Source of the DNA: a virus
Reading direction: 5' to 3' (one strand)
IMG/VR virus record: IMGVR_UViG_3300031951_000035
Span: 1 to 64,000 of that record
Length of the DNA: 64,000 nucleotides
The position numbers were made by a program, and so were the translations under genes. The notes beneath the pieces are model-generated. The model had not been told where the DNA came from and ran no database searches. It saw only the letters and a list, made by a program, of their open reading frames with translations. Shown one piece after another: positions 1,752 through 53,742 of this stretch (position 1 is the first letter of the stretch; each line of letters opens with the position of its first letter).

Positions 1752-2458
1752 GTTTCATTCCAATCTTCTTTATAGCCCATTAAACTCTTATCAACATTCT
1801 GTTCACCACGCTTGATCTTATTGATTAAATCAATCATCTTAGCGGCGGTGTCTCTCTTAACCTCGTATATGCTATTATATACCTTCTCACCAGAATTAAT
1901 AAACTTGACCACATCAATATTTAGCTTTTTACAGTTAATATCAATATACTTAATTTGTTCTGGCTTGATTCTTTCATCCATCTGGTTTGGCTGTTGCGAT
2001 AAGAACTGAGAAACATCTTTTTTGCATAGTTCTTCCGCAGCAACAACCCTTAGCTTTAGAGCCTTTCTCAATGCTCTACCCTCTGCCTTAGTTGAAGCAG
2101 TTGCAGGAGCATGAACGGCAAACATATCGTCTGTATTTCCAGCCCATACGTCTGCAACATCTGCATAAGTTTTACTGGATTTCTTTCCATCTTTGTCTGT
2201 AATTGAGAATACAACTTGATATATTACGGTAGTTTTTCCAATTGGATCTCCAGTTTCAATTCTATCCACTTTGATTGGTCCGCTGAATACAATTTCGCCA
2301 ATCAATAGTTCTGCTACGCGACGAAGGCCAGCCGTTAGTGGATTGCCATCAATTAACTCTCTATCTGTAAAGAACTGCATAGCATAGTCATGCCACTCTG
2401 GCGATAACATGCTTGGTGGTACGTCTTTTTCCGAATTAGATTCTTCTTGTTTGACCAT
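1748..2458 (-). CDS. Candidate single-strand DNA annealing protein (Erf/Rad52-like)
   Basis: The 236 residues show a beta-rich N-terminal half (about 40-115) followed by the helical motif ASTKAEGRALRKALKL (about 122-137). That motif resembles the alanine/arginine helix of Erf- and Rad52/Sak-type phage annealing proteins, which present a charged groove to single-stranded DNA. The C-terminal third is Lys-rich and variable, also usual in that group. A nuclease gene lies directly downstream in map order (2436-3263). The assignment rests on one motif and overall shape, so it is tentative; a phage-conserved protein of unknown role is the alternative. Confidence 0.45.
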   Translation of the reverse strand: MVKQEESNSEKDVPPSMLSPEWHDYAMQFFTDRELIDGNPLTAGLRRVAELLIGEIVFSGPIKVDRIETGDPIGKTTVIYQVVFSITDKDGKKSSKTYADVADVWAGNTDDMFAVHAPATASTKAEGRALRKALKLRVVAAEELCKKDVSQFLSQQPNQMDERIKPEQIKYIDINCKKLNIDVVKFINSGEKVYNSIYEVKRDTAAKMIDLINKIKRGEQNVDKSLMGYKEDWNET

Positions 2459-3263
2459 CTTTTACCTCAATTTCTATCAATCTACTTTTTGGTGGTGGAA
2501 AATTTTCCTGAATAGATGCAATTTCCTTCAATACTAATGATAGCAGATGATTCATCTTTGTCAAGGAGATACTTTTATCAATCTGTCTAATCCTAATAAT
2601 AACATATCCACTATTGATAAGAATACCCTGCTTGGCAGTGTCAGCAATTCTCTGCTTCATTAACTTCTCATCACCCCATATCGGCAAAAAATGCCCAGGA
2701 CCATCAATCTCAATTGCAGTTTTTATTTCTGGAAGGAATAAGTCTACTTCTAGATTATTTCCAAATACAAGACCGCTCTTATGAAATTCAACAGTATATC
2801 CGGCCTTACTGAGTCCATTGTTAAGATGAAGTTCAGTTTTAGATCCAAGTCTACTTGCCAGTCTTACGCTCTCTAGTGCTAATAGTCTTATTTCTTCTTG
2901 CTTTGCTTTTCCAAGTGCTTCCCAATTCTTTTTACTTATATCAGATATTTTCTTTTTGTCTTCTTCTGATAGATTATGATAAGCCTTAGATCTAGAAACG
3001 CCTATCTTTTCTTTATGGTTTTTGTCTAGAGTCTTACCTTCCGTTGGGTGTCTAGCCCTGCCCTTTTCTAGTGCAAGCTTTTGTGCTTCTGAATAGTCTC
3101 TCTTGTAATAGTCTTCGTCATTATGTAGAACTTTTCCCAAGAACTTTAGGGCACGAAGAATTTTTGTTGAATATGTGTTAAGTGATTCGGCTATTTCATA
3201 GCTACTGCACCCCTTGTTATACATATCTAAAATCCGATCTTTATTTATCAAAGCAAATTCCAT
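2436..3263 (-). CDS. Putative homing-type endonuclease (NUMOD3-like repeats plus Vsr/EDxHD-like domain)
   Basis: The N-terminal 45 residues look like a helix-turn-helix (CSSYEIAESLNTYSTKILRAL). Residues about 70-120 carry Lys-rich NUMOD3-type DNA-binding motifs. The C-terminal domain has a Glu in GSKTELHL, then LEVDLFLPEIKTAIEIDGPGHF, and then RIADTAKQGILINSGYVIIRI. That acidic-acidic-E-x-DG-x2-H pattern fits the Vsr-like nuclease core found in EDxHD homing endonucleases. No intron is visible around it, so it looks like a free-standing selfish nuclease. It overlaps both neighbours slightly. Confidence 0.65.
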   Translation of the reverse strand: MEFALINKDRILDMYNKGCSSYEIAESLNTYSTKILRALKFLGKVLHNDEDYYKRDYSEAQKLALEKGRARHPTEGKTLDKNHKEKIGVSRSKAYHNLSEEDKKKISDISKKNWEALGKAKQEEIRLLALESVRLASRLGSKTELHLNNGLSKAGYTVEFHKSGLVFGNNLEVDLFLPEIKTAIEIDGPGHFLPIWGDEKLMKQRIADTAKQGILINSGYVIIRIRQIDKSISLTKMNHLLSLVLKEIASIQENFPPPKSRLIEIEVKDGQTRRI

Positions 3264-13907: not shown

Positions 13908-14695
13908 TTGATTGAAATGGTGTATTTACCAGTTTCCCTTATTTTTTGAGTAATGCCAGCACTAACTAGCATTGATAGAAATTGTTCACAAGATTGTTCG
14001 ATTGTCATTTCCTTATTATCAATAATTCCGTCAAATTTATCATAATTATCGGCATCAATTTCGCTTTGATGGTTACTTTCAAATGGCGATCTAGTCAATC
14101 TATATACTTTTCCGCCACGTTCTTGAGTGGCGACTATTTCATTAATAAATCTACAATCTCCAATTATAGCGATCTCTGGATTATCTTGTTCTATCCGCTT
14201 AAAACAATTTTCTAAATGGACAGGTTCATAAATCTTACGCATAATTTCTGTACCAAAAAATTGCATAAATTCGCGGGCTGTCATTGCACCAGATTTATTA
14301 TTCACCCCCGGCATATTTTCCCAACGTAAATGCTCTTGTAGCTGATTCTTTTCTTCGTCAGTCCCATATACGCATTCTGGGGGTATATTGAACAGGGTGA
14401 CGCATATCTCCTTCATAGAGTCAGCAAAGTTATATGATCTTATCAGCGGCCATATTCTTCTTGAAGCGTATTGGTAGAACTCGTCACTGTTCTGTTGTAG
14501 TTCTAGAACACCCATCTCTTCGAATTCTTTTCCAGATTCATCATGAAATGTACAATTAACTACTAGTTTTCCTTCTGGCGAAACAAAAAACTTTTCTATT
14601 ACATCATGTCTTTTCATTTCGTGACCATGTAGAAAGTTTGATAGAGTTGTCTTTCCCGATTGAGCCCTACCGGATATTGCGACTATTTTAGTCAT
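13904..14695 (-). CDS. Deoxynucleoside monophosphate kinase
   Basis: A Walker A loop GRAQSGKTT lies at residues 9-17 in an N-terminal strand-loop-helix. Other features of phage dNMP kinases are present: REFMQFFGTEIMRKIYEP in the substrate-binding region and IIGDCRFINEI as the Walker B-type strand followed by RLTRSP. It phosphorylates dNMPs to dNDPs, supplying precursors together with ribonucleotide reductase and ThyX. It overlaps the homing nuclease gene upstream. Confidence 0.7.
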   Translation of the reverse strand: MTKIVAISGRAQSGKTTLSNFLHGHEMKRHDVIEKFFVSPEGKLVVNCTFHDESGKEFEEMGVLELQQNSDEFYQYASRRIWPLIRSYNFADSMKEICVTLFNIPPECVYGTDEEKNQLQEHLRWENMPGVNNKSGAMTAREFMQFFGTEIMRKIYEPVHLENCFKRIEQDNPEIAIIGDCRFINEIVATQERGGKVYRLTRSPFESNHQSEIDADNYDKFDGIIDNKEMTIEQSCEQFLSMLVSAGITQKIRETGKYTISIK

Positions 14696-15494
14696 ATTTT
14701 ATTCCTTTTGCTTTAAATAATTTTTCAAATTTATTTTTTTTTCGTTCTAATGAAAATACACATTCTTTTCCATACATAGTCTTGTATAATGAAATAGTAT
14801 TTTGAATTTTACTATTTTGTAAATAATAAAATGACTTTTGATCTATGATAGTTCCGAATCCCAAAAATTTTTTAATATTTTCTAAAAAATTAATATCTTG
14901 ATTGCAAAGATTCCATTTATGTTCAATATTTGTATATTTTCCACGCTCTCTATGTCTCCAGCTAATCGAACCATCTCCATCAAAAAATCCACGAATTAAA
15001 CTACCAGTGTATTTTTGTGGAATAATATCAAATATTCTTGAACAATTCTTTTTTTTATGTACAATTCCTATATCATATAAATCTTTAACAAGTGTTTTTG
15101 AGGATATATCTAATTTTATAGAATTTTTATAACGTTTTATTTTTGCGTCTGGTGCAATTTCATTTTTAATAAAATCAAGAATAGCTATATCTTTTTCTGC
15201 TAATCCAAATTTTATTCTATATCTAATATCATTATCATAATCAGTTATATGCCCATCAGCGATAATAAACCCAATTATATAGCAAGAATTATCATTAAGA
15301 TTTTTAAAATAATTCACATTTACATTTTTTGATCTTTCACCAAATCTTCCACATTTTTTATTTAAAGACAGTTGATTTCTTTTATTTCTAACGCTTCTAA
15401 AATTATAACCTAATTTTTGACTAATTTCTTTATCTGTAAAGTTTTTATAATTTTCTTTTAAGAAATTCTCTTCTTCTATTGACCATTTTTTCAT
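14688..15494 (-). CDS. LAGLIDADG homing endonuclease with N-terminal Myb/HTH domain
   Basis: Two LAGLIDADG helices are visible: YIIGFIIADGHI and LIRGFFDGDGSI, so a single chain can form the whole active site. The N-terminal part (KKWSIEEENFLKENYKNF..EISQKLG.. in outline) looks like a SANT/Myb DNA-binding helix set. I place the start at 15494; an in-frame ATG at 15542 is also possible and neither has a good ribosome binding site. It is free-standing between primase and dNMP kinase and no intron is seen. It is more AT-rich than its neighbours, as expected for a mobile gene. Confidence 0.85.
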   Translation of the reverse strand: MKKWSIEEENFLKENYKNFTDKEISQKLGYNFRSVRNKRNQLSLNKKCGRFGERSKNVNVNYFKNLNDNSCYIIGFIIADGHITDYDNDIRYRIKFGLAEKDIAILDFIKNEIAPDAKIKRYKNSIKLDISSKTLVKDLYDIGIVHKKKNCSRIFDIIPQKYTGSLIRGFFDGDGSISWRHRERGKYTNIEHKWNLCNQDINFLENIKKFLGFGTIIDQKSFYYLQNSKIQNTISLYKTMYGKECVFSLERKKNKFEKLFKAKGIKYD

Positions 15495-15564
15495 AATATA
15501 TGCCACAATATAGTATTTTTTACCCACTTGTATATACACCATAAGGACAAAATCTAGTTTGTCA

Positions 15565-46802: not shown

Positions 46803-47294
46803 TTATATGTAATCTAGCCATTCTTCTGGCATGTTTTCTACAACTAGAAGTAATTCTGCCTTTTTAGGCGTTATAAGCAGATTCATGCCCGCTTCTTGTG
46901 GCGTTCTATTTCCTTTTGACAAGTTGCATTTTCTGCAACAACTGACTTGATTCTCCCATGTATTCGCCTGGGACTTTTGTTTAAATCTACTGACAGGGAT
47001 TATATGATCTATAGTTAGTTCTTCTGTGTGCAGTTCTTTATTACAATATCCGCACCTACTTCTATCTCTGGTGCGTATTGCTCTTTTAGATGGGAATTTT
47101 TTGTATGAAATGCGAATATACTTAGAATATACCATCACAGCGGGGATTTTTACCTCCCCACTGGATGAGCATAATCTCTTTTTATAGTATGATAATACGC
47201 TAACATTGGTATTATTTAGGTCCAATACTATCGCTCGTCTTATATTGATAATAGATAGTGGCGTATAATCCGCATTTAATATCAGTGTCTTCAT
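46803..47294 (-). CDS. HNH endonuclease
   Basis: The core is RSRCGYCNKEL, LTIDHIIPVSR, ANTWENQVSCCRKCNLSKGNRTPQEAGM, an HNH domain flanked by two CxxC zinc pairs. The N-terminal LILNADYTPLSIINIRRAIVL is the extension known from the cyanobacterial and phage HNH family. The start is at 47294 (TGATG with the upstream stop). It may be a homing or packaging-type nuclease. Confidence 0.82.
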   Translation of the reverse strand: MKTLILNADYTPLSIINIRRAIVLDLNNTNVSVLSYYKKRLCSSSGEVKIPAVMVYSKYIRISYKKFPSKRAIRTRDRSRCGYCNKELHTEELTIDHIIPVSRFKQKSQANTWENQVSCCRKCNLSKGNRTPQEAGMNLLITPKKAELLLVVENMPEEWLDYI

Positions 47295-47482
47295 CAACAT
47301 TCACCAACAGCAATTCCACTTCTTTGCATAAGTTCTGAAATCTTCTCAAGCTCAAGAGGAGTCAGCCCAATTTGATAGAATTTATCACATCTATACTGAG
47401 TAAATCTACCATTGATAATAAATCCGACAACTCTATTTGTATAGTCAATAACTGTTTTTTTATCTTTGCTAATCTTGTACAT
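47294..47482 (-). CDS. Hypothetical protein, 62 aa
   Basis: A short soluble alpha/beta protein (DYTNRVVGFIINGRFTQYRCDKF). It overlaps the dCMP deaminase gene by 14 bases and the HNH gene by one base; no family recognised. Confidence 0.5.
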   Translation of the reverse strand: MYKISKDKKTVIDYTNRVVGFIINGRFTQYRCDKFYQIGLTPLELEKISELMQRSGIAVGEC

Positions 47483-50867: not shown

Positions 50868-50939
50868 CTGTGGGAGGTGGTTCTGCCCCACCATCTTACA
50901 CTTTAACAGAGTGCCGCATTACTGTTATGCTATCCCACA
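50868..50939 (-). tRNA. tRNA-Asn(GUU) with non-canonical T loop
   Basis: Acceptor TGTGGGA/TCCCACA with G73, D stem GCAT/ATGC, anticodon stem GCACT/AGTGT with loop CTGTTAA (GUU), T stem GGTGG/CCACC. The T loop is GGCAGAA, lacking T54-T55-C56, and the D loop AACAGTA lacks the GG pair. Both partners of the usual elbow contact are thus gone. Confidence 0.82.
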
Positions 50940-51310: not shown

Positions 51311-51470
51311 GCCCGTTTGGATATCAAGGGCGGGCAACCCCCCGTCACTGTCAAGCAGCGAGTGCGTAGGTTTCTACGTCATTTAAAATTTGTCTATTTT
51401 TAAACTGGCCTTTAGACAAACCAGTACATGCAATTATCTTTTCCATAATCAGTCGATACTTTTCACCCCC
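51311..51470 (-). ncRNA. ssrA: tmRNA coding piece (5' half with tag), permuted tmRNA
   Basis: The 5' end GGGGGTG (51470-51464) pairs with CACCTCC of the acceptor piece. TATCGACTG follows as the D-loop equivalent. The P2 strand is GATAATTGCATGT (51438-51426). PK1 is complete: ACTGG/CCAGT (51425-51421 with 51408-51404) and TTTGTC/GACAAA (51420-51415 with 51394-51389), crossing. Eleven bases later comes GTA GAA ACC TAC GCA CTC GCT GCT TGA (51377-51351), tag ending YALAA; its stop lies in hairpin CGCTG-cttga-CAGTG. The end near 51311 contains TGCCCG/CGGGCA. Confidence 0.85.
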
Positions 51471-52008
51471 GATAAATTACTATAGCCTTTGCAAATTTTA
51501 TAACATCTTCATCTGAAAATTTATTTCTGGCAAAATTAAACATAACAGATACAAATCTAACATTTCCAATTATATATCCTTTATTATTATCAATTCTGTC
51601 TAAACTAGCAGAGTTAATATTTAATGGATTTAATTTGTTATCTTGATCCTTATATGTTCTTAAATCTAAAGCAAAACCGGTAAATGGACAAGTACCATTC
51701 TGTGATTCCCAAACATCTTTTAAATGTTCTAAAGTCAAAGAATATTCTTTCTTTTTTCTTCTTTTTGCGTCTCTCAGAAACGGTTTAAATACACTATATT
51801 CATCTTGTTTTTTTGGATTATTCAAATTCCAAACGGGATAGTCCGTTCTATTACTTAATATTCTTTCAGTAGTTTCTGGACTTTTGCCATAACAAGACAA
51901 ACAGCAGTAGAATTTGTCCTTTCCCGCTTTTACTTTTCTATTATACTCGCCTTTTTCTTTTTCAAATTCTTTGTTACAAGTAGCACAAACTAATTTTATT
52001 TTTGACAT
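51463..52008 (-). CDS. HNH endonuclease inside the tmRNA loop
   Basis: The N-terminus has C-x2-C...C-x3-C zinc text (CATCNKEF, CCLSCYGK); the C-terminal HNH core includes TGFALDLRTY, NINSASLDRIDNNKGYIIGN and VRFVSVMFNFARNKF, the usual phage HNH form. The gene has its own site TAGGAGATAAA before the ATG. It fills the segment between the two tmRNA halves, and its last codons (CGG GGG TGA) run into the tmRNA 5' end by eight bases. Confidence 0.85.
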   Translation of the reverse strand: MSKIKLVCATCNKEFEKEKGEYNRKVKAGKDKFYCCLSCYGKSPETTERILSNRTDYPVWNLNNPKKQDEYSVFKPFLRDAKRRKKKEYSLTLEHLKDVWESQNGTCPFTGFALDLRTYKDQDNKLNPLNINSASLDRIDNNKGYIIGNVRFVSVMFNFARNKFSDEDVIKFAKAIVIYRG

Positions 52009-52073
52009 TTTATCTCCTATTTAGGTTATATATTTTATTATACACCAAAAATGATGGAGATGATCAAAAAAAG

Positions 52074-52136
52074 TGGAGGTGGAGGCATTGCAGCCTCGTC
52101 CTGTGTTATTTCCGAAATAATCTCTACATGTTTAGG
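52074..52136 (-). ncRNA. ssrA: tmRNA acceptor piece (3' half), permuted tmRNA
   Basis: On the minus strand: P2 strand ACATGTA-gag-ATTATT (52131-52116) complementary to GATAATTGCATGT of the coding piece, then GGAC (52101-52098), T arm GAGGC-TGCAAT-GCCTC and acceptor CACCTCC with A73 at 52074. Pairing with GGGGGTG gives G3-U70, the alanine identity pair. No CCA is encoded, and a run of seven T follows. The T loop has six bases rather than seven. Confidence 0.85.
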
Positions 52137-52697: not shown

Positions 52698-53654
52698 TTA
52701 ATCAATTGATGTTGCCTCTCCACCACTTCTTGTGACTAATCCACAAAATACCCTTAAATCGACATCTTGAGAGATTAATCTTGTGCTACCATCGCACATA
52801 ACTACTACACACCCTCCGGGATGAAAGCTGTAAAATTCTCCATCATTGCTAGCATTTATTGGCATACCGGCATTTGGTGCAGCACCTTTAAAACCATCCG
52901 GCCTAAAAGCATCTACTTTAAATGGACCAAGATTATCAGCCCAAGAAATACACTGATTAACTGATCCTTGTTCTATTTTACGCAGTCTATACACATAAGG
53001 TCTTGAAACACACTCTCCGACTAATATCGTCTTGCTAGTTCCATCCATAATTGAGGAAAGCTTAGTAACCTTATCTTTATCTAAGGCACCAACTGATGAA
53101 TCTCCACCATTGATATAAATATCAGGATCTACTACTTTCTTTTTGACTCCAGTACAGACTTCATAATCAGTGCTTGCCAAAGATAGATTTGAAATAGACG
53201 GTCTTATGCTATCACTATCTGGACTTGCTGGATAATTATTTAGTTCACCCCTAACTGCACTAGGGCAATAATAAACGCTTACTTTTCTCATGGCAGCATT
53301 TAAATTATTCTGACTATACCAATGCTCATTCCAGTTATAACTAGATGCTAGATTTCCTTCTTCCATATATGGCATTACTAAGACTCTCCAACTATGTTCT
53401 ACTCCTGATGGATTTCCAACAGGTTTTGGATTCATTTTAGCACTAGCTACCGTATAACATGCGGCCGGTAGATAATTTCTACTATCAGCACAATTTAAAA
53501 AAGCCAATCCAATTTGTCTTACATTGCTTGAACAATTTGTTCTATTTGCGGCCTCTCTTGCCGCCTGAACCGCCGGAAGTAAAAGTCCAACTAGTGTTCC
53601 AATAATAGCAATAACAACTAATAGTTCAACCAGTGTAAATCCACGTTTTTTCAT
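52698..53654 (-). CDS. DUF1559 pilin-like protein (planctomycete type)
   Basis: The N-terminus [20 protein letters not shown] is a type IV prepilin signal with cleavage before the F and the Glu at position +5, followed by [20 protein letters not shown] and [12 protein letters not shown], the DUF1559 start. The C-terminal part has [22 protein letters not shown], the family H-x-GG...DG..R signature. Start at 53654 with AAAGGATTG upstream. Families of this kind are expanded in Planctomycetota. A pilin or surface protein made by a phage is unusual; it may modify the host surface. Confidence 0.9.
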
Positions 53655-53742
53655 AATCAATCCTTTTTTTAAGTTTAAAAATACAATTATACATTTTATG
53701 TATCCCAATAAAAGATGGCAATAATGTTAGAATTTTGTTTAA

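Follow-up and report, generated by a model that had tools for sequence, protein, structure and literature searches.

The minus strand of a 64,000-nucleotide virus sequence (positions 1 to 64,000 of the IMG/VR record IMGVR_UViG_3300031951_000035, hereafter the window) very probably carries a phage permuted tmRNA gene into whose spacer a free-standing HNH homing endonuclease gene has moved, a member of a family associated with tmRNA 3' ends. Cleavage by the endonuclease, processing, regulation and tmRNA activity are inferred, there being no RNA or biochemical data.

The permuted tmRNA gene

An earlier note on this DNA had described two tmRNA halves, with the acceptor half first, and had assigned the acceptor pairs GGGGGTG/CACCTCC, G3-U70, A73, P2, GGAC and a two-stem PK1 on the minus strand. 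All of these elements lie where it had placed them, and the two halves are supported by covariance-model matches, covariation and HNH-free permuted relatives. The loop of about 603 bases with a complete HNH ORF, the stop of which runs into the tmRNA 5' end, was likewise confirmed in the sequence. Read 5' to 3' on the minus strand, the order is acceptor half, 603-nt segment with the HNH gene and coding half, with the following features:

52136-52074, minus: acceptor (tRNA-like 3') half of the permuted tmRNA (sequence; RF00023; covariation)
52131-52116, minus: P2 3' strand in the acceptor half, pairing with the P2 5' strand 51438-51426 in the coding half
52101-52098, minus: GGAC of the acceptor half
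52097-52082, minus: T stem-loop of the acceptor half
52081-52075, minus: acceptor strand CACCTCC, followed by A73 at 52074
52073-51471, minus: intervening segment from A73 to G1, 603 nt, holding the HNH gene
52061-52056 and 52017-52012, minus: hairpin AUCUCC/GGAGAU predicted by folding, with TGTATAAT (52044-52037) inside
52008-51463, minus: HNH endonuclease gene, 181 aa
51470-51311, minus: coding half of the permuted tmRNA (RF01850; covariation)
51470-51464, minus: acceptor strand GGGGGTG at the start of the coding half, G1 being 51470
51425-51389, minus: PK1 pseudoknot with two crossing stems, ACTGG/CCAGT and TTTGTCTA/TAGACAAA
51380-51351, minus: tag reading frame, GAC GTA GAA ACC TAC GCA CTC GCT GCT TGA
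51335-51331 and 51315-51311, minus: 3' hairpin of the coding half, GCCCG/CGGGC

No CCA is encoded after A73, and the T loop comprises 6 nt (TGCAAT), a length also found in L004, L073 and L189. The TGA stop of the HNH gene (51465-51463) begins within the acceptor strand GGGGGTG and takes in the base after it, thereby overlapping the tmRNA 5' end. The proposed tag frame ending in YALAA was upheld, but the 11-base gap proposed before it was not, as alignment with the relatives L079, L002 and L228 positions the resume codon (GAC, 51380) 8 nt after PK1. The encoded tag is DVETYALAA, with nine codons as in relatives (which encode ADESLALAA, AEPSFALAA and AKPSFALAA), and its stop is at 51351.

In a cmscan of a 951-nt stretch each half was matched separately, both below the gathering score: the acceptor half by the tmRNA model RF00023 (27.4 bits, E 5e-9) and the coding half by the beta_tmRNA model RF01850 (22.6 bits, E 6e-5). 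With RF04321, the model for permuted tmRNAs, only the coding half was recovered in the window, at 11.2 bits, presumably because of the long insert. Neither an Rfam cmscan in gathering mode nor ARAGORN called a tmRNA in the window, a result that is expected because the halves are split and that is not evidence of absence. In L079, which shows the same layout including the HNH gene, RF04321 attained 61.8 bits, above gathering, with a match (2369-3141) that spans the HNH gene, and HNH-free permuted relatives gave covariance-model scores of 79.9-101.3 and 87.6 bits, also above gathering.

Covariation of the acceptor stem, P2 and the first PK1 stem was assessed with anchored strands in a set of 12 distinct permuted tmRNAs, only some of which contain the HNH gene, an approach that replaces a biased choice of strands by eye. 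Pairing was retained in 98.2% of cells, both sides had changed in 9 of the 19 pairs, and the covariation score was 0.404 versus 0.136 for shuffles; when the partner strand was slid, pairing did not exceed 56%. Thus, the acceptor, P2 and PK1 pairs covary among the permuted relatives, including the acceptor pairs 6-67 (U-A/C-G) and 4-69 (G-C/C-G), and the covarying acceptor and P2 strands are about 600 nt apart in the genes filled by the HNH gene. The second PK1 stem was displaced in a MAFFT alignment of whole coding halves and was left out of the pair counts; its region contains a pairing run of 8-10, with a shuffle P of 0.0045-0.0275 in 12 of 13 sequences and of 0.10 in L074. Both PK1 stems vary in sequence among the relatives with their pairing kept.

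The tag frame is intact and G3-U70 is present in all ten filled permuted loci. In one of these, L002, P2 is partly broken (GCATG against CAATC), so that one or more filled alleles may be impaired; this P2 resembles a chimera of two lineages, which may be a price paid for gene conversion. SmpB was not found in the phage record (130.7 kb, possibly incomplete), and in the absence of a phage copy the host SmpB would be needed. In conclusion, the window gene is, as judged from its sequence, a circularly permuted two-piece tmRNA, whose activity and processing are inferred without RNA data. Close to it, at 50868-50939 (minus strand), is a tRNA-like gene (49.3 bits) with an apparent GTT anticodon and an odd T loop, which was missed by ARAGORN.

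The HNH family and its inferred mobility

The HNH protein possesses an N-terminal Cys4 zinc finger (C8, C11, C35, C39) and an HNH-type segment at about residues 134-162, with a beta-beta-alpha segment modeled around residues 133-158. It recovered phrog_3322 (endonuclease, 4e-23) and phrog_3118 (HNH) among the PHROGs and no Pfam match at E 0.01. A first structure model, built from 13 sequences, scored poorly (57.6) and was set aside; the AF2 model used here has a pLDDT of 86.9. In the PDB this model matched PacI, an HNH enzyme, best (E 0.009, prob 0.99); the score is weak, but many further HNH enzymes rank below it in the structure search. With dN/dS values of 0.17-0.28 among relatives, the gene is by this measure evolving under purifying selection.

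A search of viral contigs with the window HNH and with an alignment retrieved 55 distinct proteins. Nine of the 55 loci place the HNH gene between the halves of a permuted tmRNA, making ten with the window, and the intervening segments of such loci measure 588-618 nt. Among the 46 distinct non-permuted loci, 43 have a one-piece tmRNA (called by ARAGORN or by a gathering-level Rfam match) directly upstream of the HNH gene; the remaining three are L110, with an acceptor half near the contig edge, and L142 and L147, with a tmRNA nearby in another arrangement. A further tmRNA-linked HNH gene occurs in L149, a Verrucomicrobiota MAG. ARAGORN alone found a tmRNA beside the HNH gene in 25/46 loci of the close family versus 0/50 more distant HNH loci; with the link running throughout the close family and none in the distant loci, a chance HNH neighbor was ruled out. 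Sequence comparison thus indicates that the family is linked to tmRNA 3' ends in general, be they permuted or one-piece. In a tree built by a quick method, with several open forks, the ten HNHs from permuted loci group with the one-piece-associated L080, inside the one-piece family.

Right after the HNH stop, L111, L116 and L138 contain a 16-bp copy of the locus's own tmRNA 3' end, as a displaced tmRNA end would give. A duplicated 3' end behind the HNH gene could not be sustained as a general rule, being clear only in these three loci and weak in L080 and L103; since most one-piece loci lack it, the insertion boundary there is undefined. Relatives with 35-44% identity are present in the crAss-like phages L066, L067 and L068 without an adjoining tmRNA; downstream of them, on the opposite strand, are a group I intron in L067 and L068 and RAGATH-20/RAGATH-9 RNAs in L066. 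Two HNH relatives (L147:2501-3529 and L196:5001-5537) face a tmRNA on the opposite strand, and in L147 the 342-aa ORF stops at the tmRNA edge. A GOLLD RNA (L204:3157-3541, plus strand, 204.9 bits) precedes a one-piece tmRNA and its HNH gene by about 1 kb.

Permuted tmRNAs without the HNH gene were recovered by two DNA-pattern searches, of which one yielded short-spacer forms, including L189 of the same tmRNA lineage, and a second one L207, L208 and L212, all above the RF04321 gathering score. Their spacers span 5 nt (L212), 29 nt (L189), 112 nt (L207) and 174 nt (L208). In the closest tmRNA-bearing phages found (G005, G006, G008, G010; DNA pol 69%, NrdA 76% in G010), the spacer of the same permuted tmRNA is a 123-nt hairpin without an HNH gene, and the halves align to window positions 52134-52073 and 51471-51304. 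The HNH-free segments of different phages (L228/G010, L208, L189) have like ends, AGAAG or AAAAG at one end and TTTCTGA before the acceptor strand at the other, suggesting that the hairpin segment is older than the HNH gene. The spacers of L207 (minus strand) and L208 hold other, apparently structured inserts, with a T-arm-like GATAGGGTTCGATTCCCTATC in L207; neither of these two spacers yielded an Rfam family or a tRNA. Beside the permuted tmRNA of L208 and its cluster of about 20 tRNAs is a GOLLD RNA (L208:3077-3542, minus strand, 174.8 bits), the match of which contains a tRNA-Ile.

In two pairs of filled and empty alleles (L209 and L212; L210 and L207), the DNA surrounding the tmRNA is colinear apart from the HNH cassette. 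Differences between filled and empty partners are concentrated in the T arm and acceptor on one flank and in the initial 25 nt of the coding half on the other, with hardly any farther away: near versus far from the insertion they number 8/25 versus 2/138 (P 4e-6) in one comparison and 7/25 versus 1/77 (P 2e-4) in another, the two not being fully independent as both use one filled haplotype. The filled L001, L002 and L003 have the exchanged arms in common, and L209 and L211 are 96.7% identical over the HNH gene and tmRNA flanks versus 77-87% elsewhere. This exchange of tmRNA flanks along with the HNH gene is the pattern left by homing with co-conversion, which is seen here in sequences and not by experiment. 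Filled permuted loci occur in phages whose NrdA is 64-76% identical to that of the window (G011-G015), and also in contig G019, whose NrdA-like match is only 27% identical. The filled/empty pairs, the co-conversion tracts and the spread over different phages together support the suggestion of the earlier note that the loop holds a homing gene.

The window contains other nuclease genes, namely a probable LAGLIDADG-type homing endonuclease (14688-15542, minus strand, motif IIGFIIADGH) between replication genes and a second HNH gene (46803-47300, minus strand, PF14279/PF01844). A counterpart of the latter (L244:8204-8698) adjoins a dCMP deaminase-like gene in a relative with an HNH-free tmRNA, and it is therefore not the mobile HNH. 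At 52698-53708 (minus strand) a DUF1559 protein with a prepilin-type N-methylation motif is encoded, and L244 carries DUF1501-like genes. DUF1559/prepilin-type proteins are common in Planctomycetota, and given these genes the host may be a planctomycete.

Proposed mechanism and competing explanations

The above observations suggest a course of events for the favored explanation, invasion of the spacer by a homing gene. In a mixed infection the HNH enzyme would cleave the tmRNA gene of a phage that lacks HNH, in or close to its acceptor/T-arm end, and repair from the HNH-bearing copy would carry along the HNH gene and short tmRNA flanks, comprising the T arm with the acceptor to one side and the acceptor with the D-arm to the other. 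The insertion lies just behind the gene in one-piece tmRNAs, and in permuted ones the corresponding point is the inter-half spacer. RNase P and 3' processing would remove this spacer, leaving the mature two-piece RNA unharmed, so that the insertion would be tolerated in permuted genes because it lies in a segment lost during RNA processing.

The ribosome-binding site of the HNH gene is paired in the predicted hairpin, with TATAAT in the loop. Thermodynamic folding gives this hairpin -12 kcal/mol in the window (z -2.35, 5/200 shuffles as good), which is only moderately better than shuffles; the z values in the relatives L069, L100 and L111 are -5.6, -5.9 and -4.7. A plain run-length test was significant in 19/54 loci and not in the window. 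As a consensus sigma-70 promoter scan listed none at the TATAAT before the HNH gene, and TGTATAA-like strings are frequent in the A+T-rich window, an HNH promoter is only suggested. The hairpin might mask the ribosome-binding site in the long precursor, with HNH made only from a shorter transcript, without the acceptor half, that starts from the promoter-like TATAAT; ribosomes would thereby be kept off the acceptor strand of the tmRNA precursor.

The HNH stop lies inside the mature tmRNA in 10/10 permuted loci (positions 6-25 of the coding half), and RNase P cleavage at G1 would hence leave the HNH message non-stop. It is conceivable, though we regard it as rather unlikely, that tmRNA maturation and the HNH gene control each other in this way, the non-stop HNH mRNA being a substrate for tagging by this very tmRNA; the idea rests on nothing but the stop-codon position in the ten loci. 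Intact HNH would then come only from transcripts of the hairpin-loop promoter, which would be unable to form the acceptor stem. Such coupling would resemble ArfA with its stopless message, which is reported to be repressed by trans-translation (PMC10107115).

In an alternative origin the HNH gene formed the spacer of the permuted gene from the outset: a one-piece tmRNA and HNH gene would have been duplicated in tandem and the outer halves lost, the HNH-free relatives having lost HNH later. Permuted tmRNAs have been proposed to originate by duplication and loss (PMC3978253), the required precursor exists in the form of one-piece tmRNAs with this HNH gene behind them, and the permuted-locus HNHs cluster, with a single one-piece-associated HNH (L080) beside them. 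However, the like segment ends in L228/G010, L208 and L189 point to a hairpin segment older than HNH, and co-conversion marks the filled alleles as newcomers, which renders this origin improbable. Still less credence can be given to the notion that the halves are relics at which the HNH gene merely persists, with no functional tmRNA made: the failed gathering-level detection in the window, the weakened P2 of L002 and the lack of a detected phage SmpB would be in line with it, but decayed halves would have to be squared with covariation in the acceptor, P2 and PK1 and with tag frames and G3-U70 preserved in every filled locus.

A somewhat better, if still doubtful, case can be made for the HNH gene being a domesticated phage gene, acting for example in the exclusion of competing phages, with the tmRNA spacer as a safe location. 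Purifying selection on HNH speaks for this, as does the report, cited in PMC2988022, that T4 SegG promotes marker exclusion; the presence or absence of the HNH gene in close relatives and the co-conversion fit mobility. Domestication and homing are not exclusive readings.

Known systems and significance

Known permuted tmRNAs (RF04321; RF01849 alpha, RF01850 beta, RF01851 cyano) share with the window the order acceptor half, spacer and coding half, the stems, PK1 and an ALAA-type tag, and they are known in phages, such as Melnitz (PMC9004378). However, their segment is short, whereas the window has a 603-nt spacer with a complete HNH gene. The earlier note knew of no such arrangement, and the nearest reports, both in a tmRNA database paper covering 97,179 sequences (PMC11915505), concern permuted segments that contain a tRNA-Ala or a repeat element and group I introns of the tmRNA T-loop that carry LAGLIDADG genes; HNH is not mentioned in its text. 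Those introns likewise place a homing gene at the 3' end of the tmRNA gene, but the window has no group I intron, no splicing and an HNH instead of a LAGLIDADG enzyme; a group I intron around the HNH ORF was ruled out by the lack of any RF00028 match in the window.

Other parallels come from T4, in which SegB (between tRNA genes) and the Mob HNH enzymes are similarly selfish nucleases beside small RNA genes, with filled and empty alleles, co-conversion and an RBS hairpin. SegB is a GIY-YIG enzyme, whereas the window HNH has an N-terminal zinc finger, and its target is a tmRNA with the mature form of which the ORF end overlaps. RBS hairpins with a promoter in the loop are described for the T4 homing genes I-TevI, II, III and segB and for Aeh1 mobE, and ORF ends reaching into structured RNA for genes like I-TevI, in which loss of the hairpin harms splicing of its intron (PMC2988022). 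As proposed for the window, the I-TevI hairpin in the T4 td intron keeps ribosomes off an RNA that needs folding and processing, but that intron self-splices, whereas the window spacer would be removed by tRNA-processing enzymes.

No earlier report of the tmRNA-linked HNH family was found in the accessible literature, paywalled work (for example Mao et al. 2009) being outside its scope, and the combination of two known kinds of element, a permuted tmRNA and a homing HNH gene, appears to be unreported. The family thus seems to be an undescribed group of homing endonucleases devoted to tmRNA 3' ends across many phages, for which the permuted tmRNA spacer is a landing site for selfish genes. Such insertions are a reason why some phage tmRNAs escape annotation, and the natural filled/empty pairs are suited to tests of homing into an RNA gene. 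In these phages, ribosome rescue and the message of the parasite may be coupled through RNase P.
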